From positions 5,336,698-5,400,697 of the forward strand of contig JAJEKV010000051.1 in NCBI GenBank assembly GCA_021234155.1: a stretch of 64,000 nt of DNA. Reading direction: 5' to 3'. A program made the translations under genes and the position numbers. Source of the DNA: Isoetes taiwanensis (taxonomy: Eukaryota > Streptophyta > Lycopodiopsida > Isoetales > Isoetaceae). Under the pieces are notes generated by a model, which saw only the letters and a list, made by a program, of their open reading frames with translations, did not search any database and was not told where the DNA came from. Below are positions 3,256 through 49,985 of this stretch, piece after piece; the stretch's first letter is position 1, and the number at the start of each line of letters is the position of its first letter.

Positions 3256-3439
3256 TGTTGGATAGGCATATTCACCCCTTATTCCTTAATCTACACCGTA
3301 CGTAAAGTTCCTCGTTTGTGGGGTATGCAAGTACAAAATTTGCTATACTGTATAACAAGATTCGCAAAATACTATAAGATTTCAAGCAGAATACTATATA
3401 GTGTTGATTTCATACGTGCAAAATACAATTATGAGGGCT

Positions 3440-9073: not shown

Positions 9074-9291
9074 CTAGCCCTTGATGAGCTTCTCTAACAA
9101 TGTCCGAACTTCATGAGGTAGAACACAAATACGAAGGATGGTGTCCTTACCCTTTTGTAGAGATGTCCCGCAACCATGGTGTAGTCACGGACCCTCCTGA
9201 GAAATTGATGGCGACGGGATTGGCGCTATGTGAGAGAGCCGCCTCGCCTTTCTTACGTGGAAGAGCACCGTGAGGAGGAACTGGCTGAAAA

Positions 9292-13560: not shown

Positions 13561-13698
13561 AACAGCTTTTCTCGACAACGATGGCGCTTCCAAGCAGATG
13601 CCGCCTCGAGAAAGGAGTTCTTCCGTGTGAAATTACTTTACGTACATGGCGCATGTAAGAAAAGTAGGAGAAAATCAGACCCGCAGCGGGCGACATGT

Positions 13699-14266: not shown

Positions 14267-14280
14267 CTGGGACTACAGTG

Positions 14281-14483
14281 GCTCTCGCTGCCCTACGTCA
14301 CCCCCCGTGTGAATATGCACCCAAACCAAAGGGGGTTTAAGGGGGATTTTAATTTAAATGTGTTGGACCCAATGGTTGTGTTAATTAATGTCAATGGTAG
14401 TTATGTGTTGGTTGTTAATGTCAATGGTTGTTATGTGTTGGGGGGTTTAATTTTTATATGTTGGATGTTAATGGTTTGTGTTG
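14281..14483 (-). repeat. inverted repeat, right arm (203 bp)
   Basis: Reverse complement of 3053-3255. It lies 14 bp outside the 5' LTR of Ty3 element 1, so that element sits almost against this arm. Beyond it a further 987 bp, also absent from copy B, follow before the duplicated sequence resumes. Confidence 0.85.
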
Positions 14484-19998: not shown

Positions 19999-20012
19999 TT
20001 CTCCCCCCCTTA
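19999..20012 (-). other. polypurine tract of giant chromovirus
   Basis: On the minus strand this reads TAAGGGGGGGAGAA directly before the LTR start. It is the standard plus-strand primer of LTR retrotransposons and fixes the element's orientation and the internal border of the 3' LTR. Confidence 0.88.
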
Positions 20013-20611: not shown

Positions 20612-23011
20612 CTATGATGCATCTACCCCTCTAGTGCATGATTCTCGGCGAATCAAGCCTTCAAGCTTACCGCCGGGAGCGGGGTTGATAGCATCGTTGA
20701 TGGTGCGGCCTTGAGATTCGCGCATGAAGTCTGGATAGTGCTTCTCGAGGTCCGTTTCCATCACCCATGTAGCATCCTCGGCTGGCAAGTGTTTCCACTT
20801 GACCAAGTATTGCAGCATTTGGGTCCTTCTGGTTTGTTTATATGCTCGATCAAGAAGAGCTTCAGGCACTATATCTAAATGCTCTTCTGTCATTTCCAGT
20901 AGGGTGGGTGTATCCAAGATCTCCTCTGGATCTGGGGTGTGTTGCTTTAGAAGACTCACATGAAAGACCTTGTGGATCTTCAAGCGGGGTGGCAATTCCA
21001 GGTGATATGCTTGTTCCCCAACACGTTCAGTGATCTTGAACGGCCCAGCCCATCTGGGTGCCAACTTCTTGCAGTTACCAATTTTAAGCTTGGCTTGTTT
21101 TACCTTAATCTTAAGCCAGACCGTTTCACCCACCTGGAAAACTCGGGGGGTTCTGTGCTTATCCGCTACACTCTTTTGACGACTGCGTGCAGCCAATAGG
21201 TAACCACGAACTTCTTCAACCAAAGCTTGCATTTCCAAGAGGAGTTGCTGAGAAACCTCCACCTTAGACACGGGATTATGCCATGTGTCAGGAGTAAGAC
21301 ATTGATAACCATAATTTATCATGAAGGGAGACATTCTGGAGGACTCCTGTTTCATACTGTTATAGGCAAACTCAACTAGATAAATATAGTCAGCCCATTG
21401 TGATTGCTTACTCCATACATAACTACGTAGCATGTCCTCTATAATACGATTAATACGTTCTGTCTGACCATCCGTCTGAGGATGATATGCCGTACTCATA
21501 GCAAGCTTGGTCTGGATAGTGGCAAAGAAATCTTTCCAGAATGCACTTACAAATTTGGGATCCCTGTCGGAGACAATAACCCGTGGCATTCCATGCAACC
21601 TGAAGATCTCCTTTGCAAATAGCAGCGCGGTATCAAAGGCTGTGTCCGTGGTACGACATGGCAAGAAATGAGCCATTTTCGACAATTTGTCGACCACTAC
21701 CATTAATGCATCATATCCACGGAGAGTGCGTGGAAGGCCCACAATAAAATCCATGGTTATCACTTCCCACTTAGCATTGGGCACATCCAACGGTTGCAAC
21801 TCTCCTGGAATCCTTAGTTGCTCAGCCTTGGTCTGCTGACAGACTTGACACTGGTTAATGTATCTGGCAATGTCCTTCTTCATGGAGGGCCAAAAATAAC
21901 TGGAGCGGATCTTAAAGTAGGTCTTCATAAAACCTGCATGTCCAACTATAGAGCTGTTGTGCGTGTCATGGAGAATGAGCTTACGTACTCCTGAAGTCTC
22001 AGGTAAACACAACTTATCCTTGTAATATAACAAGTTGCCTTCTTTCTTATACGAACGGAAAGCTTCACGCTCTTTATCTGTGCGAGCTTCCTTAGCCAGA
22101 CTATCCCAAACATGACGGAACTCGGGATCCGTGGCCAAGGTCTGTTCTATCTGTTTCCCAAACTCACTGGTGAGTGTAGAAATTGCATTACAATGGGTTC
22201 GGGTTACCAAGGGATGGCGTGACAATGCATCCGCAACCACATTGTGTTTCCCAGGCTTATACATAATCTCAAAGTCGTACTCTTCCAGAAATTCCATCCA
22301 TCTTCTCTGACGGAGATTGAGATTTGGCTGGGTGGATAAGTAACGGAGGCTCTGATGATCCGTGTCCAGTTGGAATCTTCTACCAAGAAGGTAGTGTCTC
22401 CATATCCGCAGAGCACGGACAACGGCTAACAATTCCTGATCATGGGTAGGGTATCGCTGCTCCGTGTCGTTTATTTTCTTTGAATCATAGGCAATAACCC
22501 TCCCCTCCTGCATTAGGACTCCACCGGTAGCAATTTTACTGGCATCCGTTGCTACTAATTTATCCTTTTCAAGATCGGGCAATGTGAGGACTGGTGCTGA
22601 TGTTAAAGCGTCCTTAAGCTGCTGAAAACCTGTCTGGACTTTTGCTTTCCAATGTTCAATCCAATCCTTCACCTTCTCGTGCTTTGTGAGATCCGTAAGA
22701 GGTGCGGCAATCTTTGCAAAATTCCTAACAAATTTCCGATAATATCCCGCTAGTCCTAAGAAACTTCGGACCTCGGAAACATTACCTGGAATAGGCCATT
22801 CCCTTACTGCCTCGATCTTTGCCGGATCTGTAGCAATTCCCTCTGCTGAAATGACATGTCCCAAATATTCCACCTTCTGAGTGGCAAACTTGCACTTAGA
22901 GAACTTGGCAAAGAGTTGGTGACGTCTTAACTTTTGTAGGGCCAATCGAAGATGCTGCTCATGCTCCTCCAAAGTTTTACTATAGATGAGAATGTCATCA
23001 AAGAACATCAT
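20612..23011 (-). CDS. pol: chromovirus pol: RT end, RNase H, integrase, chromodomain
   Basis: 799 residues open. Starts at the RT catalytic strand '[10 protein letters not shown]'. RNase H follows with '[12 protein letters not shown]', 'HDQELLAVV' and 'TDHQSL'. The integrase HHCC zinc finger lies in '[13 protein letters not shown]' to 'CQVCQQTK'. The DDE core is 'TMDFIVGLP', '[10 protein letters not shown]' and '[14 protein letters not shown]'. The C-terminus carries a chromodomain, '[17 protein letters not shown]', the mark of chromoviruses, thought to steer integration to modified H3. The upstream RT half is in another frame (22998-23546). At the junction about ten residues usual between 'RLMNDVL' and 'FFDDIL' are missing, so this copy is probably inactive. 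Confidence 0.93.
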
Positions 23012-23546
23012 TCATCAATCGCATGAAGGTTGCGGGGGCATTAGTTAATCCAAAAGGCATAACAGTAAACTCATAATGCCCATATCTAGTGCGAAAGGCA
23101 GACTTATGAATGTCCTCCTCCTTAATCCTTATTTGATGATATCCGGAGCGTAAATCAATCTTTGAGAAATGCTTGGCCCCTTGCAACTGGTCCATTAGAT
23201 CATCTGCCCTAGGCAAAGCGTAACGGTTCTTGATGGTATGTTTATTGAGCTGCCTATAATCAATACACATCCTCAAGGAGCCATTCTTAACAAAAAGGAT
23301 AGGAGCGCCAAAAGGCAAAACACTAGGCCGAATAAAACCTAGGTTTAATAACTCCTGTAGTTGCTTCTTAAGCTCTGCCAACTCAGGGGGACTCATACGG
23401 TACGGGGCCTTACTGGTAGGCTTAGTACCGGGTTCTAAAACTAATTCGCATTCTACTCCTCTGAAAGGAAAGTTTCTGGATCTCATCTGGAAAAAGATCG
23501 GTAAATTCTCGGAGAAGATTAGCAATGCCCTCTGGCAAGGTATCAA
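22998..23546 (-). pseudogene. pol: chromovirus RT, N-terminal half
   Basis: Contains '[13 protein letters not shown]', '[16 protein letters not shown]', '[18 protein letters not shown]', '[15 protein letters not shown]' and '[18 protein letters not shown]', the classic Ty3 RT blocks. It overlaps the protease-side ORF near 23422-23546 in another frame, so a frameshift of one base lies near 23480. It joins the downstream pol only through a small deletion at about 23000. Confidence 0.92.
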
Positions 23547-25370
23547 TTACTTGCTTCTGTTTGGCATCTGACTCAATGGATGCAAGTCTGATAATGCAAA
23601 GCAACTTATCCTTACGTACAGCCTTATCTAACTGCCTGATGGTGATAGACTGCATAATAGGGTTTAAGGAGTCACCTTTAATAGTCACGCGGGCTCCGTT
23701 AGCGGCGTTGAAGGTAACTTCCCGTTTCTCGCAGTCTATATTGGCTTTTGCAGAGGCCAAGAATTCCATACCAACAATCAGATCATATTTGCCAATATCC
23801 ATTATCTCGGCACCCAAGGCAACTGGCGCACCTGGCAACTGCATCTTAAGGTTAATGCGACGGCCATGAGTGTGTCTGATCTTACCACTGGCTAAAGTAA
23901 CGGGTTTCGGTCGGGATCTCAAAGTTTCAATCCGCAATACCTGGGCCATTCTAGGAGAAGCAAAATTATGTGTACTACCCGTATCCATCAGAATTATAAA
24001 AGGTTTGCTGTCTACTTGACCTATGGTGGAAATAACGGCAGGCTGACTTTCAGCATTGTCGGTTTCAATGGCTGCAAGGATATGGGACTCACCGTGAATG
24101 TATTCGGGAGCCTCCTCCTCGACAGGTAGTGTGGACTCGAGATCGTCCCAATTGAGGTCGGCCATGGCCAGCTGTGCAGTGTGTGTGACATAAGGGCAAT
24201 TCTGCATGAAGTGCCCGGGTCGCATACACCTGTAACATGCCTTATCTCGGCGGAGCTGTTCTCGGGCCTCTTTGGGAATCGACTGTAAGAGGTTCCGAAC
24301 TTCCTTACCGACATTGTTCTGTTTGTCGGACACGTTGAAGGTGACTTTCTTTTCCTGGCGGCCATAAGAGTTCTGCTGAGAGGGCCCTGGACTTGGTGAA
24401 CGGGGTTTGTACGGTGTGGACGGGTGTGGCTGTGAGTAAGGAGCAGGACGCGGGTACTGGTTCCTTGGTGTGTCCTCCTCGAGGCTCAATGCCTTAGCCT
24501 CAGCCTCTACAACTGATTTTGGGTCTATGGCCTTAACCATTCGTTTTATTGATGGGGCCAACCCTTCAATGTAGCCCTCCACCGCCCTCTTTTCATTCAT
24601 TCCTAGCACATACAGCCTCAAGCGCATGAATTCATCAGTGTAGGCCTGAACTGTCATACCCTTCTGCTCTAACCTGTAAAAGGTCTGGATTTGTTGGCAT
24701 TTGTGCGCACGAGGCACATAATGCGACTTAAAAGCTTTGGCAAACTTCCGGAATTTGCATCTGCTTCTATCCAGATGCTTGGCTCTGGCATAGCCCTTCC
24801 ACCAAATACGGGCAGCTCCTGTAAGGTTTGTGGTGGCAACCTTTCCCGTATCCTTTTCTGTCATGCCATAGGATTTCCCAAACTCCTTCATCTCGTCCAA
24901 CCAGGACTCTGCATTCAGGCCGCCTCGAGATTTCCCATCAAACTGGGCCAATTTCCTATTTTTCCATATGCTGGTTATGGCCGTATCAACCGTCTTACGG
25001 TACTCTTTGTCCCGACGCTTTGCATGGTCACCAGATGATCCAGACGTCTGAGAGGACACAGAAGTGGCTGATGGTGAAGATGTAGCACTATCCCTTGAAG
25101 AACTTCGATGGTGTTTGGAATGGTGCTTCCTTCGTGCGGGTACAGGGCTTGGTTCAGGTGCAAGTGGCTGCTGGGGTGGTGGACTTGGCAGTAAACGGGG
25201 GTAATTCCGGCCCATTCTCCTGCATAGGCTGCGGTGGGTTGGCATTCAACACATAAGTTTGTAACTCAACTAATTGCCTCTTCATCAACATAAGTTCCTG
25301 CTCAGGTGTTAATCGACTGGCATTCGAGGGTGTTTGCCAGACGGCGTTGCGTGCACCGTCTATATTGAGT
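23422..25370 (-). pseudogene. gag: chromovirus gag and protease
   Basis: The long ORF 23422-25245 (607 residues) holds a basic Ser/His-rich start, a retrotransposon gag capsid ('FKSHYVPRAHKCQQIQTFY', 'QAYTDEFMRLRLYVLGM'), a CCHC knuckle (CYRCMRPGHFMQNC) and a retropepsin ('ILMDTGSTHNFASPRM'). The natural N-terminus continues upstream in another frame to about 25370 ('LTPEQELMLMKRQLVELQ'), so a frameshift lies between 25170 and 25240. Position directly upstream of RT fits a Gag-Pol polyprotein. Confidence 0.9.
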
Positions 25371-26169: not shown

Positions 26170-28110
26170 TTGACTTCAAACATGCTACCTAGGCTCCAAC
26201 ATGCAAGGTGGCTCAGACATGCCAAGGTGTCTCCAACATGGCAACTAGGCTTCAATATGCCAAGGTGGCTCAAACATGCCACCTAGGCTCCGACATGCCA
26301 AGGTGGCTCAAACATGCCAAGGTGGCTCAAACATGACACCTAGGTCTCGGGACATGCCAAGGTGGCTCGAACATGCCAAGGTTTCTCCAACATGGCACCT
26401 AGGCTCCGACATGCCACGGTGGCTCAAACATGCCACCTAGGCTCCAACATGCCAAGGTGACTCAAACATGCCATACGAGCTCCAACATGCCACCTAAGCC
26501 CAAACATGCCAAGGTGGATCAAACATGCCATGCGAGATCCAACATGCCAAGGTGGCTCCAACATGCCACCTAGGTACAAACATGCCAAGGTGGCTGAAAC
26601 ATGCCACCTAGGCTTCAACATATGCCATGTGGGCTCCAACATGCCACCTAGACTCCAACATGCCACCTAGGCTCCAACGTGCCACCTAGTCTCCAACATG
26701 CCAAGATGGCTCAAACATGCCACCTCGACTCCAACATGCCACCCAGAATCAAACATGCCAAGGTGGCTCAAACATGCCAGCAGGCTCTAACATGCTAAGG
26801 CGGCTCAAACATGCCACGTAGGCTCCAACATGCCACCTAGGCTCCATCATGCCAAGGTGGCTCAAACATGCCACCTAGGCTCAAACATGCCAAGGTGGAT
26901 CAAACATGCCACGCAGGCTCCAACATTCCACCTAGGTTCCAACATGCCAAGGTGGCTCAAACATGCCACGCTGGTTCGAACATGCCACCTAGGCTCAAAC
27001 ATGCCATGCGCGCTCCACGATGCCACCTTGGCTCCAACATGCCAAGGTGGCTCAAACATGCCACGCTGGCTCCAACATGCCATGGTGGCTTAAACATGCC
27101 GCCTAGGCTCAAACATGCCAAGATGGCTCAAACATGCCACACGGGCTCCAACATGCCACCTAGGCTCAAACATGCCAAGGTGGCTCAAACTTGCCACGTG
27201 GCAAACAACATGCCACCTAGGCTCAAACATGCCAAGGTGGCTCAAACATGCCACGCTGGCTCCAACATGCCAAGGTGGCTCAAACATGCCATGGCTCTAA
27301 CATGCCACCTAGGCTCCAATATGCCAAGGTGGCTCCAACATGCCACCTAGGCTCCAACGTGCCACCTAGGCTACAAACATGCCAAGGTGGCTCAAACATG
27401 CCACGAGGGCTCCAACATGCCACTGGCTCCAACATCCACCTAGGCTCAAACATGCCAAGGTGGCTCAAACATGCCATGCAGGCTCCAACATGTCAACTAG
27501 GCTCAAACATGCCAAGGTGGCTCAAACATGCCACGTGGACTCCAACATGCCACCTAGGTGGCTCAAACATGCCACCTAGGCTCCAACATCCACCTAGCCT
27601 CAAACATGTCAAGGTGGCTCAAACATGTCACGTGGGCTCCAAAATGCCACCTCGGCTCCAACATGCCATAGCTCAAACATGCCACCTAGGCTCTAATATC
27701 CACCTACGCTTAAACATGCCAAGATGGCTCAAACATGCCACCTAGGCTCAAACATGCCAAGGTGGCTCAAACATGCCACATGGACTCCAACATGCCAAGG
27801 TGGCTCAAACATGCCACGTGGGCTCCAACATGCCACCTGGGCTCCAACATGCCACTTAGGCTTCAACATGCGAAGGTGGCTCAAACATGCCACCCATGTC
27901 AAACATGCTAAGGTGGCTCAAACATGCCAAGGTGGCTCAAACATGCCCGCGGGCTCCAACACGCCAAGATGGCTCAAATATGCCACCTAGGCTCAAACAT
28001 GCCAGGGTGGTTGAAACATGCCATGTGGGCTCCAACATGCCACCAAGGCTCCAACATGCCAAGGTGCCTCAGGCATGCCACCTAGGCACCAATATGCCAC
28101 CTAGGCACTC
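26170..28110 (+). repeat. minisatellite array of about 19/38-bp units
   Basis: About fifty tandem half-units of the form 'aacatgccaaggtggctc' alternating with 'aacatgccacctaggctc'. The stretch is nearly 1.9 kb long. The ORFs inside it, on either strand, are artefacts of the repeat. A shorter array of the same unit in opposite orientation is at 29450-29745, forming the outer parts of an inverted repeat. Confidence 0.95.
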
Positions 28111-28560
28111 CAAGCGGTGACATGGCATGCCAACTAAGCAAGGCCAAGTTTTGACTAGGCCAAAAATGAAAAGATGTCCATCTTTGGTCCTTTCATTGGG
28201 TGATGTTGGCAAATTTTGGTTGACATGGCTAGATGGTGGTGATGTGGACATGATGACTAGGACTTTATGCAAGAAATATGATAACCTTTAAAAATTTTGG
28301 CAGAGGAGTTTGGCAAGGGATAGAATAGAGGGATCTTGAAGAACTTAAACGCTGACACCCTTCCCCAAATCGAACCAGGCCAGGACTTTGCCCTCACCAG
28401 AGGGGAGAGGTCAGACCCCAGGAGACGGACCTCAAAAAGGTTGCGGAGGTAGCCTTTCCTGCCAACGATCCTCCGGGAAGGCAAATGCCAATGCCCCGCC
28501 TCCTGGAGCTCGGTTTCCCTATCCGACTATTGAATCCACCATTCAAGTAACACACAGGGT
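28080..28560 (+). repeat. inner inverted repeat, left arm
   Basis: Reverse-complementary to about 29100-29480: 'ccaaaaatgaaaagatgtcc' with 'ggacatcttttcatttttgg', then shared 'gatagaatagagggatctt' and 'gaatccacc' blocks. It continues directly from the minisatellite array. Confidence 0.85.
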
Positions 28561-29099
28561 TTCGGAGACCATATCCTAATCAGATTCGACCAGGATCTTG
28601 CACAATGTCATCACGTAGAGGGAGGGTGTTGATGCCAGAAGATGGACCCTTAAAACCTTTCAAAAGCAGTTCATCCCAAAGGTTTTCTCCCAAAGGCCCT
28701 TGGCCACGGACAGACAACTCTCCCACTCCGAAATTGTAAACTGACCCTGCCAATGGACTCAAAACATCGATATTACCCTCGGGACCAAGGTTTGTGGGCA
28801 GAGGACCACCCTTTCTCCAAGAAGCGCCAAAGTAGCTCATGTCCAATACGTTCCTAGTCAATTGGCATAAGAGATGGCTGCAGAATATTGTCATGTAGAG
28901 GGTTCGTGTTTCTTTCGTTGCAAAAAATGACCATATAACTTGGCCCCTAGGGTAATGTCACTATTCCGGATGACATGGCGAAGTCGAATCTCCATTTCGG
29001 AGCCTTTGTACTGCTCGAACGACAAAACACTTGGGTTTCTACATGGTCGAGCAGGACGCTTCACGGCTTGATAAGTTTCTCCGGACGGATCTTGGATTT
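28561..29099. other. central spacer of the foldback-like element
   Basis: About 540 bp between the two arms, without a credible ORF. Part of it ('attcgaccaggatcttgc' then 'atgtcatcacgt') resembles 32008-32042, indicating that this family occurs more than once. Confidence 0.5.
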
Positions 29100-29745
29100 T
29101 TTTGAACCTGCTCGAAGCAGGTTACTTGAACGGTGGATTCAACAGTCGGATAGAGAAATTGAGCTCCGAGAGGAAGCCGCGCAAAGTTCTGGCCTGGTTC
29201 GATTTGGGGAAGGGTGTCAGCGCAAGATCCCTCTATTCTATCCATTGCCAAACTCCTCTACCAAAAATTCCAAAGGTTATCATATTCCTTGCATAAAGTC
29301 CTAGTCATCATGTCTATGTCACCATCATCTAGCCATGTCACCCAAAATTTGCCAACATCGCCCAATGAAAAGACCAAAGATGGACATCTTTTCATTTTTG
29401 GCCTAGTCAAAACTTGGCCTTGCTTACTTGGCATGCCACATCACCATTTGGAGTGCCTAGATGGCATGCTTGAGCCTAGGTGGCATGCTTGAGCCACCTT
29501 GGCATGTTGGAGCCTAGGTGGCATGTTAGAGCCTCGGGTGGCATGTTTGAGCCACCTTGGCATGTTGGAGCCCACATGGCATCTTGGAGCCCACGTGGTA
29601 TGTTTGAGCCACCTTGGCATGTTGGAGCCCACGTGGCATGTTTGAGCCACCTTGACATGTTTGAGCCATCTTGTCATGTTGGAGCCTAGGTGGCATGTTT
29701 GAGCCCCGTTGGCATGTTGGAGCGACCTTGGCTCCAACATGAGGA
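29100..29745 (-). repeat. inverted repeat, right arm with minisatellite end
   Basis: 29100-29480 mirrors 28080-28560, and 29450-29745 is the same 'catgttggagcc' / 'cctaggtggcatgtt' unit array as 26170-28110 but reversed and much shorter (about 15 half-units). Together with the left arm this gives a foldback architecture with tandemly repeated ends. Confidence 0.85.
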
Positions 29746-30194
29746 GCCTCATCCCCATACCAAGTTGTAAACATGAGAGAACTCGTAACTATACCAAGCT
29801 TGCATCGCAAACTAGCCTTAATAAAGCATGCCCCTTAGCTATACACCGCAACCAATAAGGCCGGGTACCATGATAAATAATAATAAAATAGGATATAGCT
29901 AAGCACACAATGGGGGGAGTCATACATGCACCATGGAAAATACATAATATCATACAAGGGTCCCCAAAAAAAGAGGACACAAATGGCTCTCCCCTCCTTA
30001 ATCAAGTCGAAGTTTGAGTCGAAACATACCTATAGTAAGAACATGACCACTAACATGGGGGGACTCGTACCTCCATCAAGTGTGAAATACGTGACAAAGG
30101 GTAGGAACCCTTGACCGTCTAGCCTTGGGGCATGCCCCTTAGCTATATGCCACAACCAATAATGTTGGACATTATGCTATAAAAGAAAGAAGAA
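29746..30194. other. non-coding sequence
   Basis: No gene recognised. It shares phrases such as 'ccccttagctata' with itself (29832 and 30138), suggesting an older diverged duplication that leads into the 134-bp array. Confidence 0.4.
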
Positions 30195-30729
30195 GGTACC
30201 TAAGTATCAAACACAAGGAGGGACTAATACCCCCACCATGTGAAAAAACACATCTATCGTAGAGCTTAAATAATCTCGAATGGCACAACCCTAAGAACAC
30301 CATCCCTCCCTCTAGATGAGACCAAGAAAGTACCTAAGTATCAGACACAAGGAGGGACTAATAACCCCACCATGTGAAAAAACACATCTATCATAGAGCT
30401 TAAATAATCTCGAATGGCATGACCCTAAGAACACCATCCCTCCCTCTAGATGAGACCAAGAAAGTACCTAAGTATCAGACACAAGGAGGGAACTAATAAC
30501 CCCACCATGTGAAAAAACACATCTATCATAGAGCTTAAATAATCTCGAATGGCACAGCCCTAAGAACACCATCCCTCCCTCTAGATGAGACCAAGAAAGT
30601 ACCTAAGTATCAGACACAAGGAGGGACTAATAACCCCACCATGTGAAAAAACACATCTATCATAGAGCTTAAATAATCTCGAATGGCACACTAAGAACAC
30701 CATCCCTCCTTCTAGATGAGACCAAGCGA
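30195..30729. repeat. tandem repeat, four copies of about 134 bp
   Basis: Copies start near 30195, 30330, 30464 and 30599 at 'gtacctaagtatca' and run to 'tagatgagaccaag'. They are almost identical, so amplification is recent. No coding potential or hairpin is evident. Confidence 0.93.
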
Positions 30730-34899: not shown

Positions 34900-35342
34900 G
34901 TTTAAATTCACACATTGTTTAAAACTACACTAGAAAAAAAAACGTGTTATTATATAAAAAAAACAATGCATGGTTGCACTTCAAACAATGAAAACAACAC
35001 GTGGACATATGAAGGAAACCCATGCTAAAAAGTCTTACAAATGAAGACCATGCATTGTTTTTATGTGAATACCACACCTAAAAATCATGTGCAGTTTTTG
35101 TTTTTGAGCAAAAATCACACATAGAATTTACATGTTGTTTTTCTTGAGAACCATGGCAAAAACTACACATAAAAATTACGGGTCGTTTTTTGTCTAAAAA
35201 CCACGCATGAAAACTACACGTTCTTTTTGTGTGAGAAACTGCACTAAAAAACTACACATTGTTTCTAGCATTTTCGGAACATTACTATGGGTGATTTTTA
35301 AGTGTTGTTTTTTTGTAAAAAAGACAGCAAAAAACAACACAT
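34900..35342. repeat. degenerate A/C-rich short repeats
   Basis: Repeated 'aaaactacaca', 'acaacac' and 'aaaaaccac' phrases, opposite in orientation to 25816-26090. The outer edge at about 35342 ('aaaacaacac') meets the end of extra ORF C. Confidence 0.55.
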
Positions 35343-35720
35343 AGAGCCAACTTTGGGGTTATAGTGCCTCCTTAGCGCATAGAAGATCTGCCACAAGTGA
35401 TCGTTGGCGTCAGCAAATGCTTCATGCCTTGTCATATCCCAATAGTCCCATGTGCGACGAAGAGTTTGCTTCAGGTTCTCAAAGGCCCGTTCTCTGAGAA
35501 TGTTAATTACTTCCAACCCCTTTTCTGGATCATAGGGCTCTCCTGGCTCTACGGGTTCCCCTACCTCGTAACCTTCATCCCATTCCGGGTACTCCCCATA
35601 CCGCTGGCCATAATCCTGGTCAGGCGGTCCTGGATCATCCCTTCGTATCTGGTTGGTAATTCTTTCTTCATATTCTTCGAGTCCCTCGTCTGCAAGACGG
35701 TAGGAATGAATATAGAACAT
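35298..35720 (-). CDS. extra ORF C of the giant chromovirus, acidic protein
   Basis: The open minus-strand frame of up to 140 codons has strongly biased composition: Glu/Asp/Pro/Tyr-rich ('YGEYPEWDEGYEVGEP') followed by a helical part ('RERAFENLKQTLRRTWDY', 'IFYALRRHYNPKVG'). The frame probably opens after a splice-like 'cttgcag' at about 35694 rather than at an ATG. The 3' end runs into repeat sequence, so the C-terminus is likely truncated by the insertion. No family recognised. It lies on the same strand and downstream of ORF B (190 bp apart). Confidence 0.5.
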   Translation of the reverse strand: MFYIHSYRLADEGLEEYEERITNQIRRDDPGPPDQDYGQRYGEYPEWDEGYEVGEPVEPGEPYDPEKGLEVINILRERAFENLKQTLRRTWDYWDMTRHEAFADANDHLWQIFYALRRHYNPKVGSMCCFLLSFLQKNNT

Positions 35721-35909: not shown

Positions 35910-37310
35910 CTAGGAACTAGGTCCCTCCCCTTCGTCCATAGGCCGAGGACGTGGTGGCGGCGGTCGATGTCGTAACAGAGTCACCCCTGGGTCTACGGTG
36001 GCAGCCGCAATGGAGGCAACCTCTGGCGGATAGGCAACAGCCAATGGGGCCGCCGTAAGGAGTTTCATACTCATCCAGGGTGCAATATCCTGTCCCAAGG
36101 CCGTCAGGGCAAGATCCCGTCGTACGAGTACATAAGTGAACGTACGATAGGGAAGCTTCTTGTGCCCTGCCAGTGTGGAAAGAGCACGGAGGGTCCACCA
36201 TGAAGCCTCGGCCTCCGGCCCTAAGTCCCGGGCTATAAAAAGAACTTGCCCCTGCCGAAAAGCTGATAGGAAGAAGCGAGTAAGGTGGTTTCCCAATACC
36301 TTCCCTTGCGGGGTCTCTGATGTGGCAACCTCCTTGTCCAAGTCCATAGGGACTTCTTCTTCCTTGAGTTCTTGCTGCTCTTCCTTCAAATGAGCAGGAT
36401 TATGGTATAGATCCTCTCCCTCCTCATCCGAACCGGAGGGAACTTCGACCATATTAATATTTGGGACATGAGGTCCCATAGCTGTAAAGGCATCCGGTGA
36501 AGGCTGAGATGGCGGATCCTGCATCACCAATTCCCGAAGCCGTAGCAAGGTCTCAGCTGGCTCTATGGTCTCCTGGTGGAATTGGAGTAGCTGCTGTACC
36601 TCCTGGGGCAGATCCATAGGAGCAAAGTCGATGAAGTCATCCATACAGTACTCCGCTAACTCATAGAGTACATGGTCCTTGCGCTGGCGCTTAAACCCGT
36701 CCACCATGTGATAGGTCCAGATGATATCATCCAAGAGAAGATATTCTTGGCCTTGGTGATACACAACTGGAAGGGCGTCTAGCCCGGACAAGCGTGCAGC
36801 TTGTTCGCGACGCGGTGGCATCTCCTCTGCCAACTGCTTCCAACGGGTGAAGTCACCCATGCCTATGTGCTCATCGTCTTCCTCCTCGGAAGACTCAGGA
36901 AGTTTGCCTTTCTCTACTGGCAATGTCTCATCCTCAACGTACTGATCCATGAGGATGGCTAGGGCAAAGGCAACTTCAAGATATTGTCGCCCCTGATGCT
37001 GCACAACTGGCAGCTGCTTGCCCCATCTAAGCTTTCCCTTCAACACATCATATGCGTGGGTGTCACCCCCTAGCATATCCCGGACCACATCCCGTTCTAA
37101 ATACAACTGGGGAGGTTCCCCAAGAGGAATGCACAGAGGAAGCATCTCCTCCGTATAAAACTCTAAGAATCCGGCATAATCTGGGTGCCGCTGCATATTG
37201 GTGATGAGGTCAAGGCGCTGACATAAAAGGGGTCGTAACAGGTCGAAGGGCACCTGTGGATCCCAATGCTCTCCATCCTGGTACCATGCAAGTAGGTCGG
37301 TGGTAGCCAT
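35910..37310 (-). CDS. extra ORF B of the giant chromovirus, 466 aa, unknown
   Basis: I chose the ATG at 37310 (context gccATGg) rather than the in-frame upstream codons. The protein has an internal repeat: 'LPVVQHQGRQYL' near residue 100 and 'LPVVYHQGQEYL' near residue 180. There are acidic patches at 138-149 and about 320-360, an Ala/Leu-rich helical region at 370-440 and a Pro/Arg-rich tail 'RPPPPRPRP'. No zinc knuckle, protease, RT or membrane segment is seen. Intact over its whole length, which is notable beside the broken gag-pol. I do not recognise a family. Confidence 0.7.
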   Translation of the reverse strand: MATTDLLAWYQDGEHWDPQVPFDLLRPLLCQRLDLITNMQRHPDYAGFLEFYTEEMLPLCIPLGEPPQLYLERDVVRDMLGGDTHAYDVLKGKLRWGKQLPVVQHQGRQYLEVAFALAILMDQYVEDETLPVEKGKLPESSEEEDDEHIGMGDFTRWKQLAEEMPPRREQAARLSGLDALPVVYHQGQEYLLLDDIIWTYHMVDGFKRQRKDHVLYELAEYCMDDFIDFAPMDLPQEVQQLLQFHQETIEPAETLLRLRELVMQDPPSQPSPDAFTAMGPHVPNINMVEVPSGSDEEGEDLYHNPAHLKEEQQELKEEEVPMDLDKEVATSETPQGKVLGNHLTRFFLSAFRQGQVLFIARDLGPEAEASWWTLRALSTLAGHKKLPYRTFTYVLVRRDLALTALGQDIAPWMSMKLLTAAPLAVAYPPEVASIAAATVDPGVTLLRHRPPPPRPRPMDEGEGPSS

Positions 37311-37494
37311 GGGCGCTGGAAGGAAGGAGGAAGGAAGAGAAACAGATATGAACAATTGAAATGAAACTTTGAAGATCCTTTTTATCCCTTTTATTTATGC
37401 TGACGTCAGCATTTTCGTACTCAATACAAAACAAAAAGTAAATTTTTATTTAATATAAGAAAATATTTACATTGCAAATATCCTGCAACTTTTG

Positions 37495-38541
37495 CTAAGG
37501 ACGCTCTCCCCGAATCCTGCGGGCGAGGGCTAAATCCTTTGGCATTATGGTGACCCTCTTTGCGTGGATAGCGCAAAGATTGGCATCACCAAAGAGTGCC
37601 ACCAGGTAGGCCTCCGCAGCCTCTTGGAGCGCTAGGATGGCAAAAGTCTGGAAGCGGAGGTCGGTTTTAAACTCTTGGGCGATCTCCCGAACCAACCTTT
37701 GAAAGGGAAGCTTCCGTATCAGAAGTTGCGTGGACTTATGAAATTTACGGATCTCCCGTAAGGCCACAGTACCAGGTCTATACCGGTGGGGCTTCCTTTG
37801 TGGAGCAGGGTTAGGAGGCGGCCCCTTGTGCCCCGGGATCGTCTTGGCCCCTACAACTGGACGGGGCCGAGAGGCATCCACCCGCTCCTGCCTCCGGCTG
37901 GAACTGGCGTTCTTCCCAAAGGCTCCGACAGTCTTCAGCTTTTCCTTGTACTGGCTGCCGGCCTTTCGGGCTACGGATTTCCTCCGGTGCTTAACGGTCG
38001 CATGCTCCGTTTGGTTTGGGCCCTGCCCATTCCCTGATCCCCCATCGCCCTGCTGATCCGGCTGCTCTTGCCGGGCCTTCTCCTCCTTTTCCTTTTGGAT
38101 CCTTTCCTGCTCCTCCTCGTACTCCCGAGCTCTCCTGATGTCTTCTTCAATCTCATTGTATCGTCGCTCTACGATGCGGCGAAGGAGTTCGGCATGGTAT
38201 CGATCGGGCCACTGGTTCATATCGATCTGGATTGTCGTTAGATAATCTATGCTGATGTCAGGAATCTCTCCCCACGTGAAGCTCTGAGAAGCTTCATGCC
38301 ATTGGTATGGGGGAATCTCGATGGCCCTGCCATCTATAACGGCAACTCCATCTCCAAGATACCGGTATTCCCTACCTCGAGCCGCGGTATCGGCTCGTTC
38401 TATCTCTCTGCGGTCATCCTCCCTGGCCAAGTTCCTAATGCGGTCGGCCTCTGTTCTTATGTCCTCCTCTTCAGTGTGGCCTTCACATTCGGGAGGGTAA
38501 AATTTTATTAGCATCATGACCAAGTCAGGTTGCTCGGCCAT
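37495..38541 (-). CDS. histone H3-like fusion protein, extra ORF A of the giant chromovirus
   Basis: 348 aa from the ATG at 38541 (accATGg). Residues 1-113 are mixed acidic sequence, 114-158 a charged helix likely to form a coiled coil ('[16 protein letters not shown]'), and 159-249 a Gly/Pro and basic linker with '[11 protein letters not shown]'. Residues 250-348 are a complete H3 core from '[15 protein letters not shown]' through '[14 protein letters not shown]', '[15 protein letters not shown]' to 'ARRIRGERP'. By eye 84 of 99 residues equal canonical H3; L90 and A96 (H3 numbering) match plant H3.3. The normal H3 tail is replaced. There are no introns. Residues at the H3-H3 interface (C110, H113, D123) are kept, while E105 is Gly and residue 87 is Phe. 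It would be expected in nucleosomes or with histone chaperones, but that is inference. Confidence 0.9.
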
Positions 38542-38760
38542 GGTGTAAGGAAGCTTTCGGAGATTCAGCCTGACCAAAAACGGCTCCGAGTAATGTTAAA
38601 TTGGATAGGGGATCCTATCGTTGTTCTCAAATCTGTTTACCAACTCGTCCAAAAGTATATCTATCAAGGCAGGGTCAGTAGCCATGTGCTTGGCGATGAA
38701 GGCATAGATCTGAGCTATGGTAAGGGTAGCGGGGTCCACAATACTCTTGGTGTTGGCCAT
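38542..38760 (-). pseudogene. upstream in-frame extension of the H3 fusion ORF
   Basis: From an ATG at 38760 the same frame reads 'MANTKSIVDPATLTIAQIY' and onward as good protein sequence to a TAA at 38596-38598, then continues open ('[18 protein letters not shown]') into the ORF A start. One stop therefore separates a 54-codon upstream piece from ORF A. It may be a nonsense mutation in an originally 421-codon ORF, or a short upstream ORF. Confidence 0.55.
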
Positions 38761-39532
38761 ACTATGGCGCTGGGGTCAACAGACTGCGGGAAGGAGGCGC
38801 TGGTGGTTAAGGCGACGGTAAGGAAGGCGCTAGGGTCGGAGAAGGCGGTAGGGATAAAGCAAGGTGGGTAGGCAAGATCGGGTCCGGTAGCTATGGCGGT
38901 CGTCTGGCTTAGTGGGCGGAGGTGCAGAAGGCAAGGCGGACATAATAATTTTAACGGCCGCCTAACTTTTAAATTTTAAATTTTTTTCTTGTTAACTTTT
39001 TATTTTATAAAAGAAATATTTATACGGCGGAAATACGCGAAAAATTACGGTCGGGCGCCGACGGCATTCTACGCGCTCCCACCGCGACTGGGGGTCGACG
39101 AAAAGCAAGCGGCGCCCGGGTTGACTTTCGCGCCCGAAATTCACGCGATGGTACGGTCGGGCGCCGACTGCATTCCACGCACTCCTACCACCCCTGTAAA
39201 TCACTAAAAAGCAAGCGGCGCCCGATTGACTTTCGGGGCCCCTCCGTCGCCATTTTTCGCCAGCGACGACTGTTCTAGGGTATTTGGGGTACGCCCGATC
39301 CAATGGAGCCGTTTCCGCCTTCGTCCAAGCTACCTACAAGAAGTTATATCCCCTCCAAACTTGGGTCTTCTAGTCGCCCTAACTTCTTTAAACCTACTAT
39401 TTCTTACTTTAACCTACCACAAAGCCAAACATCAAAGAAAACTAAGCAACACACTAGATTAGGCTCCTACCTAACTGCCGAAATACGAGTTAGGGTTTGG
39501 CCAGTGCTATGGTTTCGAGCGATCGAAATCAC
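38761..39532 (-). other. leader of the giant chromovirus
   Basis: 772 bp between the PBS and the first extra ORF. It contains a two-copy repeat (39047-39136 and 39150-39241). No other gene is evident. Confidence 0.6.
39047..39241. repeat. two-copy GC-rich repeat in the chromovirus leader
   Basis: About 90-bp copies share 'tacggtcgggcgccgac', 'aaaagcaagcggcgccc' and 'ttgactttcg', offset by about 104 bp. The GC-rich inverted 'gggcgcc' cores could fold, which would suit a packaging or translation signal, but that is speculative. Confidence 0.75.
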
Positions 39533-39545
39533 GGCTCTGATACCA
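39533..39545 (-). other. primer-binding site, initiator tRNA-Met type
   Basis: On the minus strand the LTR end CACA is followed by one base and then TGGTATCAGAGCC, the standard complement of plant initiator tRNA-Met. It confirms that the LTR at 39547 is the 5' LTR of a minus-strand element. Confidence 0.93.
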
Positions 39546-39546
39546 C

Positions 39547-40376
39547 TGTGACGCTCCCTGAACATATACGACACTCGGACGTATACATACGGGGACTTTC
39601 CCCACCCATGGCGACCAACTCACCATGAGCAGGGCCCTCCGTCTAACTCGGGCCATCTATAAGAAGATGCTCAAGTGAAGGACACAGAGGGGTCATTCGG
39701 CCCACGCCTTCAATGGGCTCCTACGTCGCGGAAGCATGAATACAAGGTTAGCACACAACATAATCATATCATAATTTACCACCAGAGGGGTGGCCCATCC
39801 ATCCAAGTGCCAACAACAAAGAATATGCATTTAATACTAAGGAAAACACCCAAACCCATGGTTCTACCCCGGCTCAGACTCCAGTGAGGATCGACTGACG
39901 GCTAGGTCTCAAGAGATCAGCAGACCGAATCTTGACATGGCGTTGGCTGGCATAGAACATCGGCTAGGGTTGTCCACTCCACCCGCCCCTCCTGTGCACA
40001 CTTTGCAGATGAGTCCAATCATGCTATGGCATCACTATAGCCTTCCGGACACGCAGACTCAAGGTATCACCCTTTGAGCCTACTACAGGGTTCATGAAGC
40101 CCCGTCCGATGAGGCAGGTCGGGGAAGCGTCCCCTTCCAGGATCACAGTGGTTCCATGGGTGAGCTAGAGAATACGTGCCGCATCAGTGACCCCCGCATC
40201 CGTACCCAACTTACTCACCCTAAATCTACTCAAAGTGCAAGATGCTCCATACGGATCACACCTCTACACCCAAGGAGTGTCAGACCCATACCCGGCCCTC
40301 TACGTGACCGGCTATCAGGCCTGACCCACTGTAGGAGTCTCAGGAGCCTTTTATGTTCGTGCAAGACCCCACCCCC
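39547..40376 (-). repeat. truncated 5' LTR of the giant chromovirus
   Basis: Matches the first 830 bp (plus-strand order) of the 18434-19998 LTR, then stops at about 40376 ('gcaagaccccacccc') and continues into unrelated A-rich sequence. The outer half of the LTR, with the promoter end and the target-site partner, is missing. The element therefore cannot be transcribed from its own complete LTR as it stands. Confidence 0.9.
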
Positions 40377-44414: not shown

Positions 44415-46139
44415 GCAATTCTTTTCAACGAGAGGAAGGCGTTTAGTTTTCCATTTAAAGTTGGCTTTCTATTATAGATAGCAGTTTCTTTGTGTTTTGG
44501 TTGTTAGTTTTTTGGGTTAGCAATTAGGAGGTCTTGTGTTTATGTCTCTCTTGAGATACTTAGGGGAATGTCATATATCCCTATGAGATGCAACTTCGTT
44601 CTTTTTTCTTCGGCTTTTCGACAAGGTTAAGTCCTTGCTTTAATATAAGCATGTTTGCCCTCTACTTTAATGACACATCTCACTTGAGTATTTCCTTTTG
44701 TGCAAGGCCATTCTCCTAAGCACATATATCAATAGACATAGCTCGTGTGCAATCCCATTGTGTTGGATCAACTCCATTGAAAAGGTAAGTTCTATATGAC
44801 TACAAGTTACCATGAACATGGTGTTTGTAGGTATAATATAAAAGATGTAAAGTTTTTGTAGATAAATACTCCCAAATTGATACGACCTCTGACTCACAAA
44901 ATATAAAAGTCAGTAGTAATAATACATAGAGCTCCAACTATACCAACTGGTGGGCATATCAATCTTAATCAATGGCACATCAACTTGATCCAAAACAAGC
45001 CACCAACCACCGGAGTTACATGGAACTCCTCTTGGAAGTTAATCAAAAGTGGGAAAGGAATTCAACAAGGGATTAAACTAACTCAACAATTTTTGTCATA
45101 TAGAAAGGAATTCATGATAAAGTTAGCTTTTTACAAGGAAATAGTAAAGTAAGACACAAGACAACCTCAAATTCAATAAAAAATTCAACAGCTGTTGTCA
45201 TTTAATCAACATAGATGCATATGCACATTTCTGCTACATCTCTCGAAAACTATAGATTTGGATTTCTTTGTCAAAGTCTTAGGTCTACTTCATAGCTTTG
45301 ATTATTTTCCATATTGTTCTATGAAAGGTGATTCCACCGTGCTAAAGATGCTTAAATTTGAGCATAAAAAAAAAATAACCAAGCATTAATCTGAGTACTA
45401 ATCTATTTAGATTACGTACATCTATGTTATCAAATAAGTACAAAATTCACATTTGGATACGTATATTTTTGTTAGAAATGCTCAATCGGAGCATTAGGTT
45501 TATGAAGAATGGTTTCATTAAGCTTCCACTGCATCTAAGATGGATGGCTAGTTTTCTCCCACTCTCCTCTTGACGGTGTTGCAAATGATTTGAATGGCTT
45601 GGCCTCTTCCCAAATTGCGCTAACATTATAGAAGAGTTGAACTCCTACTTAAATGATTAAAAAAAAACAATCAGCCTTGTTCCCAAGTTGCAACTTGCCA
45701 GCATGCATCACACACCAAATCATCTCGTGCCAAGTAAGAAAAATCTTAAACTGAGCCTTCCTTCATAAAGGTCCACAGGGCAGATTCCAGTATTAGAACA
45801 GACATATTCTGGCAGAACCTGTTAGCAGCATATGTAACTTATAAGCAAATATTGGTTATTCTTAGGTTTATACTTGTGGGTTCACACCTACTCCAGAAGA
45901 TCAATGAGTAGCTCCTCATATTTGCTAACCATATCGTTGCATTCCTTGCTAATAATTCCAGATGCACTCATGGCCTTGTTAATTTCTGCAATTATTTCCC
46001 GATTGAAAATACAAAGGGTCAAATGCAGAAGGTCAAATTAAATACACTAATTTCCAAGCCCTTCGTATAGAGGGTTCTGCTATAGCAACTTGGACATAAC
46101 TTGAAGAATTATGATAAGGCCCAATGTCTTTGCATTAGT
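44415..46139. repeat. segmental duplication copy B, left part
   Basis: Matches 2360-3050 and 15471-16500 with only scattered differences and without the 12.4-kb block. The join reads 'tatagaa' + 'agga' + 'attcatgata' at 45105-45110. No gene in it. Confidence 0.93.
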
Positions 46140-48028
46140 ACATTGCACGTCATAAAGGGAAATGTTTTACATGTTGGAAAGCCATCCTAGAACCTTTTGG
46201 CGCAAGGTTCTTCGAAAGCCAGCCCAGCCTACGAGAAACATCACTAATGAGCAGTGGGAACAATACTTGCAGCAACTCTATGATCCTCAAGAGACACGAG
46301 CACTCATACCCCCACAGAATGGTCCGACATTAGAAATCACAGAGGATGATGTTACCCAGGGTCTGCAGCACTTGGCCAATGGGAAAGCAAAGGGCCTGGA
46401 TGGTATGCAGGCAGAGTTGCTCAAGTGGGCAGGGGAGCCTATGGTACCAGTCCTAACCACTATGTTCAACAGAGCGCTACAGTAAGGATTCCCCCAGCAG
46501 TGGACCACAAGCAGAGTTGTCCCCATTTACAAGGCAGGAGATCCACATAGTCCAATCAATTACCGAACAATCATGGTCAGTTCGGTGTTTGCCAAACTGC
46601 TAGCTGGCATTATTGAGCAACAGTTGACTAGGTGGGCAGAAGCAACAGGTGTGCGAGCTCTCACGCAAGCATCTTCACATTGAGGACTTTGGTTAAGGAT
46701 AGCAGAAACCGTCGGCGGGACCTGTATTGTTGCTTTGTTGACTTTGCGAAGGCTTTTGACACTGTGCCTCGGGACAAGTTATGGGAAAGATTGCGGCAAC
46801 TGGAGGTCCCTGTGGATATGCAAAATGCAGTATACAGGTTGTACGAGAGTTGTTCAGGTCAGTTGCGGATGACGGGGCAACCATTCACTAGCAGTATTGG
46901 GATCCGCCAGGGATGTCCTCTTTTCCCAACATTGTTTGGTCTGTACATTGACCAGTTGGAACACTGGCTCATGGACAATGGGGGTGGCGGGACCCAACTT
47001 TTGCATCAGGTCATCAGGCAACTCATCTATGCAGATGATGTTGACCTCTTAGCTCACACTCCAGAGGATATGCAGTCTCACCTAGATGCTCTGGATACAT
47101 TCTGCCAGGCCACAGACATGAACGTCAATCTGGCCAAGACTAAGGTGGTCCTAATCTCATCCTCGCGCCATCCAAGGCCCCCTTCATTCACTTATCGAGG
47201 GCAACAAGTGGAGGTGACACCCACCTACAAGTATCTGGGAGTGGAGTTTCCTTCTACACTATGCTGGGACACTTCCATAAGATTGCGTGTAGCAGCAGGC
47301 TGGAAAGCACTTTATACAATAACCACAGAGCAGAATTGTATGATTGGGGACATCAGGCACATCTGTTCAGGGTATTGGTAGAGCCCGTTATTTTGTATGG
47401 GGTTGAAGTCTGGGGCCCGGTGGTGTTCCTTGCTACTTGGAGCGACTTAGAACAGGTGCAGAAGGCCTTCTTAGCACGGGCACTCGGAGTGAAATCCACG
47501 GTCCCATATCAAATTTTGTTGCAGGAGACAGGTTTCCTGCCACTTCAGCGAGCGACCCTTGATAGACACATCGTCTATTTCCAGAAGGTGGTAAATATGG
47601 ATGATAATCGTCTACCGCACTTGGCTTATGCAGTGGCAATGGGACCACAACGACTCAAGAATTGTTGGAAGGATAAAAGAGTGCAGTGGCTAACTAGATG
47701 GAATGTCCAGGAGCACATGTGCATCCAGGTAGAAACAGAGGTAGATCGCGATAGCCTGAGATGTTACCTTGATGCTTGTTTCTCCAGCAAGCTTTGGGAT
47801 TCCAGGGCCCTGGAGCAAGTCAAAATAGCACATTACAAGCAGCACATAAATCCCACAATAGAACGAGGCCCACAGCGCTACCTACGTTCACATCTACCCA
47901 TGAAAAAGCGCAGGCATATCGCCTCCATTCGCACAGGTGCCCACCATCTCCGGATTGAGACAGGTCGATGGATTGGGGAGCCACGTCAGGATAGGGTTTG
48001 TCAGTGCTGCCAGACGGGAGCTGTTGAG
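46140..48028 (+). pseudogene. 5'-truncated LINE, RT to C-terminus (copy B)
   Basis: Cleaner copy of the 16497-18433 LINE. RT blocks: 'NGKAKGLDGMQAELLKW' (46380), 'LYCCFVDFAKAFDTVPRD' (46720), 'SIGIRQGCPLFPTLFGLYI' (46900) and 'YADDVDLLAH' (47030). After that come 'GVEVWGPVV' and 'CQCCQTGAVE', cut by the solo LTR at 48029. Relative to copy A it lacks 33 bp near 46672 and has frame breaks at about 46485 and 47270. No endonuclease domain, so it was truncated on insertion. Confidence 0.88.
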
Positions 48029-49605
48029 TGTGACGCTCCCTTAACATATACGACACTCGGACGTATACATATGGGGACTTTCCCCTCCCATGGCGACCAA
48101 CTCACCATGAGCAGGGCCCTCCGTCTAACTCGGGCCATCTATAAGAAGATGCTCAAGTGAAGGACACAGAGGGGTCATTCGGCCCACGCCTTCAATGGGC
48201 TCCTACATCATGGAAGCGTGAATACAAGGTTAGCACACAACATAATCATATCATAATTTATCACCACGAGGGGTGGCCCATCCATCCAAGTGACAACAAC
48301 AAAGAATATGCATTTAATACTAAGGAAAACACCCAAACCCATGGTTCTACCCCGGCTCCGACTCCAGTGAGGATCGACTGACGGCTAGGTCTCAAGAGAT
48401 CAGCAGACCGAATCTTGACATGGCGTTGGCTGGCATAGAACATCGGCTAGGGTTGTCCACTCCATCCGCCCCTCCTGTGCACACTTTGCAGATGAGTCCA
48501 ATCATGCTATGGCATCACTATAGCCTTCCGGACACGCAGACTCAAGGTATCACCCTTTGAGCCTACTACAGGGTTCATGAAGCCCCGTCCGATGAGGCAG
48601 GTCGGGGAAGCGTCCCCTTCCAGGATCACAGTGGTTCCATGGGTGAGCTAGAGAATACGTGCCGCATCAGCGACCCCCGCATCCGTACCCAACTTACTCA
48701 CCCTAAATCTACTCAAAGTGCAAGATGCTCCATACGGATCACACCTCTACACCCAGGGAGTGTCAGACCCATACCCGGCCCTCTACGTGACCGGCTATCA
48801 GGCCTAGCCCACTGTAGGAGTCTCAGGAGCCTTTTATGTTCGTGCAAGACCCCACCCCCACTTCACCACTGTGTCCCTTGTTTGGTGCTAAGTCATTCCA
48901 TAGCATCCACGACTCGGTGGTCTCTTGTACACAGGCCGCATCTAATGGGAAGTACAGGGATCAACCTAGGAGTATACTACTAACATGGCTCAGAGGTCTC
49001 TACCCCCTCCTTAATTCCCCCATTTCCAGAGTAATACTATACAAAGAACTATCAATCCATCCTTTAAGAGCAAGACCAGAATCAGAATTAAAGAGAACTC
49101 AACTTTACAATCAAGGGTTAGTTCTTATAAGTAAGACACAGAGAGAACAGACGAAGCAAACACAACAAGTGCCCAACAGGGGCGCTACCCTAGAATTCAC
49201 AAGCTATACTAACCACCTACCTGAGTTCCTGCTGGACCTGTTGTCATTTGGTGCTTCCATCTTCCCTGGACTTGGCGCTCAGCTCTGGACACACAGGTAA
49301 AAGTGCTTGGCAAGGTGGGCGCTCAGCTCCTGCTCCTCTTGGGCGATTTTGGGAGTTAATCAGGCCTAGGGGTCAAGGTGATGGCTCAATTTGGAATTCC
49401 CCATGATGGCCAATCGAATTAGGCCAAGTGGCGCTCCCCTAAATAGCCAATTAGTCTACTTCAAGTAATTGGATAATTATCCTTTAATGGTTAATTTAAC
49501 ATAGCTAATTAAATCCCTTTTAGATCAATGTCAAAATACCCCATGGTGGCGTACCTTTGTTGGTGACGTGTCATCATATTACGTATAAATACATGGAACG
49601 TCACA
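48029..49605 (-). repeat. solo LTR inserted in LINE, with TTGAG duplication
   Basis: 1577-bp complete LTR of the giant chromovirus family, TGTGACG to CGTCACA, with TTGAG on both sides (48024-48028 and 49606-49610). Removing it and one TTGAG restores the LINE frame, joining '...CCQTGAVE' to 'DECHTFQHCPAYDQIR'. The solo state results from recombination between two LTRs of a former full element. Confidence 0.95.
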
Positions 49606-49985
49606 TTGAGGATGAGTGTCACACTTTCCAGCACTGCCCGGCATATGATCAGATTCGGACACGCTATGCTCAGTTGAGTAGACCTGATGAGCCGCTACAT
49701 ATGATACTGGGCACGACTTTGGTGCGCTCACTCGGATCATACATTCAAGAAGTACTGGACTTGAGGGCTCAGATATGCCCCCAGTCAACCATTTAATCGT
49801 TGTCAGCAGTCTTATTGCTGCCATGGTTTTTCCCTCGAAAACCCTTCGGGGCGGGGTTTTTTTTAATCCGGGCAGTAATGTGACTGCTGCGCTTTTTGTA
49901 TTGGGTCCCATAGGCCGATTGGTCTCCGTGGACGATAAAAACAATTCTATTCTATTCTATTATTTTATTTCACATTCTATTTCAT
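49606..49985 (+). pseudogene. LINE 3' end (copy B)
   Basis: Continues the LINE C-terminus 'DECHTFQHCPAYDQIRTRY' with a CCHC-like cysteine-histidine motif shared with the part before the solo LTR, then a stop at about 49795. The 3' UTR contains a hairpin ('cgaaaacccttcggggcggg') and the tail is a short repeat of 'attct', not poly-A. Confidence 0.85.

Follow-up and report, generated by a model that had tools for sequence, protein, structure and literature searches.

We have found that a histone H3 core forms the C-terminal end of a larger protein, ORF1, whose gene probably belongs to an LTR retrotransposon of a plant. The open-reading-frame list gives ORF1 348 codons, from ATG to stop (37495-38541, minus strand), in the 64-kb stretch of DNA that we analysed and that we call the window. 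The last 99 residues are a plant H3.3-like core, and no relatives were found for the 249 before them. A plant host is suggested by the residues of this core and by the chromodomain element described below. We give a probability of roughly 0.65 to the reading that this is an element-borne H3 fusion gene. Support for it comes from the 249 upstream codons being free of stops, from a long terminal repeat (LTR) and a primer-binding site (PBS) lying upstream in sense, from a conserved second gene, ORF2, that follows in sense 184 bp on, and from the intactness of ORF1 and ORF2, in contrast to a gag-pol that is divided between frames. What weakens the proposed explanation is that the H3 ORF is known from one copy.

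That the end of ORF1 is an H3 core is beyond any reasonable appeal to chance. Residues 250-348 (37498-37794, minus strand, followed by the stop codon at 37495-37497) run from K37 to residue 135 of H3 and end in RRIRGERP. The comparison with the histone domain that an earlier note on this DNA had proposed as a check was positive: Pfam Histone PF00125 matches ORF1 at E 1.3e-40 over positions 20-122 of its 122. The best PDB chain in a phmmer search is a histone H3.3 (7ux9_E, E 1.8e-52), and the core aligns free of gaps. Compared position by position from K37 to A135, it is identical to the H3.3 of Rosa (P0006) at 86 of 99 residues, close to the 84 or so that the note had estimated for the last 99 codons; the corresponding figures are 84/99 for the H3.1 of Cynara (P0093) and 85/99 for an H3 of Closterium (P0011). 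The 13 changes relative to H3.3 are Y54F, Q55H, E59Q, D77E, S86T, H87F, V89I, G102A, E105G, T107A, I124L, Q125A and A135P. The note's assignment of the core to the plant H3.3 type is supported by Y41 and L90, which are present as in the Rosa protein, and A96 is of the plant H3.3 type too. We take residues 41, 87 and 90 to be sites that distinguish plant H3.3 from H3.1; residue 87 is of neither type, being F in ORF1, H in H3.3 and S in H3.1. Given Y41 and L90, an origin from H3.1 was judged less likely.

Two other identities were tried and rejected. CENH3 has a divergent core with a longer loop 1; the core of ORF1 is canonical and H3.3-like, has no gap relative to H3.3 and keeps loop 1 unaltered. 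A plain reading artefact does not go together with a full-length H3 match in an open frame. As had been described before, the core lacks an intron and ORF1 is one open frame from ATG to stop; the core is also free of indels and internal stops. The earlier proposal went further and had an H3.3 mRNA captured and fused to a new N-terminal region. The intronless, fused core is there, and since plant H3.3 genes usually have introns, capture through mRNA is what we infer from it rather than what we observe.

A modest case can be made for constraint on the core during its time in the element. The BLOSUM62 sum of the 13 changes is 8; a neutral model, in which a back-translated H3.3 core was mutated until it carried 13 amino-acid changes, gives a mean of -5.4 and an SD of 5.8 (one-sided P 0.0135, with values of 0.008-0.026 across eight settings). 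Changes more conservative than neutral mutation gives suggest selection on the core during its residence in the element. If the two LTRs called A and B below belong to one insertion, their difference of 1.9% would imply that few changes have accumulated since that insertion. Other counts are less telling. Of 25 positions taken as DNA contacts, 1 is changed (S86T) where 3.2 changes are expected (P 0.12, not significant), and of 8 taken as belonging to the H3-H3' bundle, 0 where 1.1 are expected (P 0.30, not significant). In a set of 27 distinct H3 domains taken from the search matches, 22 of the 99 sites are variable; five of the 13 changes fall on these, where about 2.9 would be expected, so the overlap is weak.

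The recognisable H3 tail is replaced in ORF1 by 249 novel residues (37795-38541, minus strand). By charge counts residues 1-113 are acidic (26 D/E, 12 K/R) and residues 185-249 are basic (17 K/R, 3 D/E). Between them, a long helix is predicted for residues 114-158, with a G/Q/N-rich spacer between the helix and the basic stretch. The helix is the sole confident region (block means of 64-93 for residues 121-160) of a single-sequence AF2 model of the whole ORF1 that is otherwise poor (mean pLDDT 44.5). A protein search with residues 1-250 found no relative at E 1e-3 among 2087 scored candidates, and conservation of the fusion itself is for this reason not seen. Pfam gave nothing above cut-off for this part and, at E 10, just a sub-threshold coiled-coil-like match; its profile had three weak matches in the PDB, the best at E 0.016, over the helical part. 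When full-length ORF1 was used, 7884 of 7932 scored candidates passed, mostly tandem H3 gene models. Nine proteins inspected among the matches listed (the best 120 of the 7884) are H3 repeats or fusions whose N-terminal part is, by eye, unlike that of ORF1; a relative may stand lower among the matches.

Does anything of the tail remain? Residues 1-36 of H3, compared with three N-terminal regions of ORF1, show no significant similarity (P 0.87, 0.38 and 0.09). None of the canonical sites K4, K9 and K27 is present, and R stands in the place of K36. The basic stretch holds RKS at 187 and ARK at 191, which may be a mimic of the ARKS motif of H3. The frame of ORF1 also continues upstream over 73 codons, beginning with an ATG at 38760 and interrupted by a single stop at 38596-38598. 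This in-frame segment (38596-38760, minus strand, from the stop-to-stop list) looks protein-like by eye and has no Pfam match. As it is cut off by a stop codon, the original ORF1 protein was perhaps longer, and the present copy is perhaps damaged.

ORF2 (35910-37310, minus strand, 466 codons) is the part of this locus for which conservation can be argued from a second sequence. A search of 5.8 billion protein sequences, in which 7996 candidates were scored, returned one relative, P0001, a protein of 471 residues encoded on a contig of 2953 bases. The two are 43% identical over 100% of the length with few gaps (E 2.3e-106). A frame that is open over its full length at such a level of identity is most likely conserved and under selection as a protein. 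ORF2 has no Pfam domain, its profile has two matches in the PDB that we take as chance (E 0.37 and 0.53), and its AF2 model is poor (mean pLDDT 32.6). A short repeat, LPVV.HQG..YL, occurs inside ORF2 (P 0.01) and is not seen in P0001 (P 0.85). Further downstream is ORF3 (35298-35720, minus strand, 140 residues), with no Pfam match above cut-off. Ten pairwise comparisons among the N-terminal part of ORF1, ORF2, ORF3, gag, the upstream segment and P0001 gave no P below 0.05, the lowest being 0.074, and the ORF2 profile had no match in ORF1. Between ORF1 and ORF2, at 37399-37410, there is a perfect 12-base palindrome, GCTGACGTCAGC, a kind of site that appeared in 0 of 100 shuffles and that is presumably a CRE/TGA-type motif. 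Pyrimidine-rich tracts ending in CAG lie upstream of ORF2 and of the ATG at 38760. Promoter or splice roles for the palindrome and the tracts are guesses.

The surroundings are those of a Ty3-type retrotransposon. Self-blastn finds three LTR copies in direct orientation: B (39547-40376, 830 bp, minus strand, starting TGGGG and ending TCACA), A (18434-19264, 831 bp, minus strand) and C (48029-48859). The LTR ends are TG..CA. Copies A and B are 97.95% identical over 831 aligned columns, with 16 differences in 830 (1.9%). One base inside the edge of LTR B, at 39533-39545 on the minus strand, is an exact match to TGGTATCAGAGCC, which we take to be a primer site of the tRNA-Met type; it is the sole exact occurrence within the window, where 0.01 would be expected by chance on average. 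The position of this site marks LTR B as a 5' LTR; A is taken as the 3' LTR. The ATG of ORF1 lies about 1 kb downstream of LTR B, in sense. The leader also contains a 106-bp tandem repeat in 1.8 copies (39046-39235) and then, by eye, the motif TATAAATA on the minus strand. Searches for tRNA genes and Rfam families gave no match.

Gag, protease, reverse transcriptase, RNase H, integrase and chromodomain are all encoded downstream of ORF1 on the same minus strand. The gag and protease frame (23422-25245) matches Ty3_capsid (1.1e-14), Retrotrans_gag (5.5e-14) and RVP_2 (1.8e-13). The first part of the reverse transcriptase (22998-23546; RVT_1 4e-20, profile positions 5-138 of 205) is in a frame that differs from those of its neighbours. 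The rest of pol (20612-23011) contains the end of the reverse transcriptase (RVT_1 151-205), RT_RNaseH (3e-32), Integrase_H2C2 (1.6e-19) and Chromo (2e-9), together with an rve match of 1.8e-7 that is slightly below its cut-off. Gag starts about 12 kb past ORF1, and ORF2 and ORF3 stand in between. The earlier note had placed ORF1 between the PBS with its 5' LTR and the gag of a Ty3 chromovirus, in sense: the LTR, the PBS, the orientation and a chromodomain-bearing gag-pol downstream are all found, but gag is not adjacent.

The H3 ORF, ORF2, gag-pol and both LTRs are likely, judging from their arrangement, to be parts of one element. Doubt arises from the absence of a target-site duplication (no common 5-mer or 4-mer in the 25-30 bases compared at the outer edges of LTRs A and B), from the distance to gag and from a nested foldback-like insert between ORF3 and gag (26176-29732), where further unassigned DNA is also found. 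In that insert a 19-bp minisatellite, present in about 102 copies on one side, recurs as an inverted array on the other, and the two arms enclose a 311-nt inverted repeat (28028-28338 and 29223-29533, 91%). At 30190-30726, a 134-bp unit is tandemly repeated in four copies with 96% matches.

It is possible, although we favour the single element, that the block of H3-ORF1 and ORF2 and the gag-pol genes (18.4-25.4 kb) came with separate insertions that share one type of LTR and were brought together through recombination or nesting; the element with H3 may then be non-autonomous. The lack of a target-site duplication and the nested repeats in the 12 kb before gag would both fit, and so would a gag-pol split over frames beside an ORF1 (from its ATG) and an ORF2 that are intact. 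The flank of LTR A (15471-18433) contains, on the plus strand, a reverse transcriptase (RVT_1 3.1e-14 in its second copy) and is LINE-like by eye; beyond LTR B nothing resembling a continuation of it is seen, an observation that need not tell against one insertion, and two ORFs there have no Pfam match. Against separate insertions speak the strand and order of the genes, which are as in one element, and the 98% likeness of the LTRs. The flank, moreover, may have been lost for a separate reason, namely duplication: 15471-20000, which comprises the LINE-like stretch together with the LTR and some 0.74 kb from inside the LTR element, is present again at 45110-49607 (96%; parts of it are 95.2, 98.3 and 97.3% identical). 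Apart from this duplication the flank has no further match elsewhere in the window. The pairwise differences among LTRs A, B and C are 16, 14 and 15, so that the three are nearly equidistant and A and B do not necessarily belong together; this fits one insertion with an early duplication of its 3' side as well as joined parts of different insertions.

The window contains more duplicated DNA. The segment 2360-3051 matches 44415-45106 (98.8%), immediately before the duplication at 45110-49607. One copy of the duplication contains an insert (3053-14483) flanked by inverted repeats (3053-3255 and 14281-14483, 98%), with direct repeats at 3439-4015 and 13698-14267 (94%) and weak similarity to Ty3 pol at 9385-10001 (28-29%).

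A less probable account of the fusion is that a functionless, processed H3.3 pseudogene came by chance to lie in frame with an open stretch of a decayed element or of intergenic DNA. The core is present once in the window, lacks an intron, differs by 13 amino acids from the highly conserved H3.3 and misses the tail, as a 5'-truncated copy would. Such an accident requires a stop-free frame of 249 codons to have existed upstream beforehand. With a chance of 0.049 per codon of meeting a stop, derived from the composition of the region, we estimate the probability of this at 3.6e-6. The changes in the core are conservative, indels and stops are absent from it, no poly-A immediately follows the H3 stop, and a conserved ORF2 stands next to it, all of which make us regard the pseudogene as improbable.

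Still more improbable is an origin of ORF1 and ORF2 from an endogenised DNA virus of the algal or giant-virus type, or from another genomic neighbour, with the LTR element beside or around them: compact genes on the same strand with a short spacer, TATA-like (by eye) and CRE-like motifs upstream of the ORFs, the N-termini of two viral H3-like proteins, each extended by about 170 residues that have no homologs, and TAIL in the Sylvanvirus H3 where ORF1 has FAIL at 87-90 (both as described in PMC9145170) would suit it, but the core is 86/99 identical to land-plant H3.3, PBS and LTR lie upstream in sense, ORF2 has its one relative in the protein search, and three scans of viral contigs with a few short peptide patterns each, which have limited sensitivity, found no relative, nor did a similar scan of bacterial and archaeal contigs.

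Returning to the element-borne fusion gene, we can suggest what it might be for. A family of Ty3-type LTR retrotransposons would have taken up an H3.3 messenger, and the core would have survived as the C-terminus of a larger protein encoded by the element, ORF1, beside a second, conserved accessory protein, ORF2. The core, which keeps the listed bundle and DNA-contact positions except for S86T, may form nucleosomes with H4, H2A and H2B. The fusion protein might pair with the H4 of the host and be deposited in its nucleosomes via the H3.3 pathway; the N-terminal part of the fusion would thereby be docked on chromatin. With K4, K9 and K27 missing and R in place of K36, nucleosomes of this kind would lack the usual silencing marks on that H3, and this could help the expression of the element, its integration, or both. 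We propose this mechanism of nucleosome entry, docking and relief from silencing tentatively, by analogy. For the combined explanation, that is a captured H3.3 kept as a tail-less fusion in a Ty3-type element together with such a mechanism, we see the chances as evenly balanced. The widest version is a doubtful one: it would have a lineage of LTR retrotransposons encode its own tail-less H3.3 with a self-made N-terminal domain, under selection and with the conserved ORF2 as a partner, and have this protein enter the nucleosomes of the host, either at the element or at target sites, where it would remove the residues used in silencing and tether the machinery of the element.

Plants silence retrotransposons largely via marks on the H3 tail. 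If the suggestions above are true, an element with a tail-less H3 core would be a direct counter to the substrate of silencing, or a use of it, and would offer a testable case of a retroelement editing nucleosomes. LTR retrotransposons would join DNA viruses and DNA transposons as carriers of parasite histones. Should other copies agree, a mobile element would have taken over a chromatin protein of its host. Even as a one-off capture, an H3.3-type core would be documented in a new protein setting.

An H3 fold whose N-terminal tail is replaced, as in ORF1, is also found in CENH3/CENP-A; ORF1 is unlike it in its canonical H3.3-like core (86/99) and unaltered loop 1. In plant chromoviruses of the Ty3/gypsy group, gag-pol with a chromodomain goes together with a PBS of the tRNA-Met type, as here (PMC6317226). 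In the main text of that survey the terms for extra ORFs that were looked for do not occur and the word "histone" occurs once; here ORF1 with its H3 core and ORF2 precede gag.

Other parasites encode histones as well. According to PMC9145170, H3-like proteins occur in Xenomavirus, a relative of the prasinoviruses, in Sylvanvirus and, with N-terminal extensions, in late phycodnavirus MAGs. As with ORF1, H3 is thus carried in the genome of a parasite, and the two extensions of about 170 residues mentioned above recall the N-terminal part of ORF1; these are DNA viruses, however, whereas ORF1 has an LTR and PBS setting and a plant H3.3 core. CpBV-H4 is an H4 of viral origin that becomes part of the nucleosomes of its host and alters host expression through its tail (PMC5423620), and it is a precedent for the mechanism proposed for ORF1, as a parasite-encoded histone acting in the nucleosomes of the host. 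It differs in being an H4 of a wasp polydnavirus (bracovirus) with an insect host, and its action is shown by experiment, while the role of ORF1 is inferred from sequence.

A close likeness is found in fungi, where hAT DNA transposons carry H3-like genes (H3L), as described for Pyrenophora tritici-repentis (PMC3538342) and for Pseudocercospora fijiensis and relatives (PMC6710886). Like ORF1, H3L is a captured H3 coding sequence in a mobile element, and in Pyrenophora it is accompanied by a further ORF of unassigned function (PMC3538342), as ORF1 is by ORF2. The fungal carriers are DNA transposons, with H3-like proteins encoded between terminal inverted repeats, and the passages describing them do not mention a long new N-terminal region; in the present case the setting is that of an LTR element, apparently in a plant, and the core is fused to 249 residues. 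None of the five ORFs scanned with Pfam shows a hAT domain. Of 198 inverted repeats within the element, the 25 longest all lie at 26-29.8 kb, away from the H3 ORF. The earlier note knew of no described family of LTR retrotransposons carrying an H3 fold. For LTR retrotransposons a search of the open-licence literature by titles and the beginnings of abstracts agrees in having found none; for mobile elements in general the fungal hAT transposons had already provided the case. Capture of host genes by mobile elements and histones encoded by parasites are thus both known, and what would be new here is the LTR setting with a fused core.
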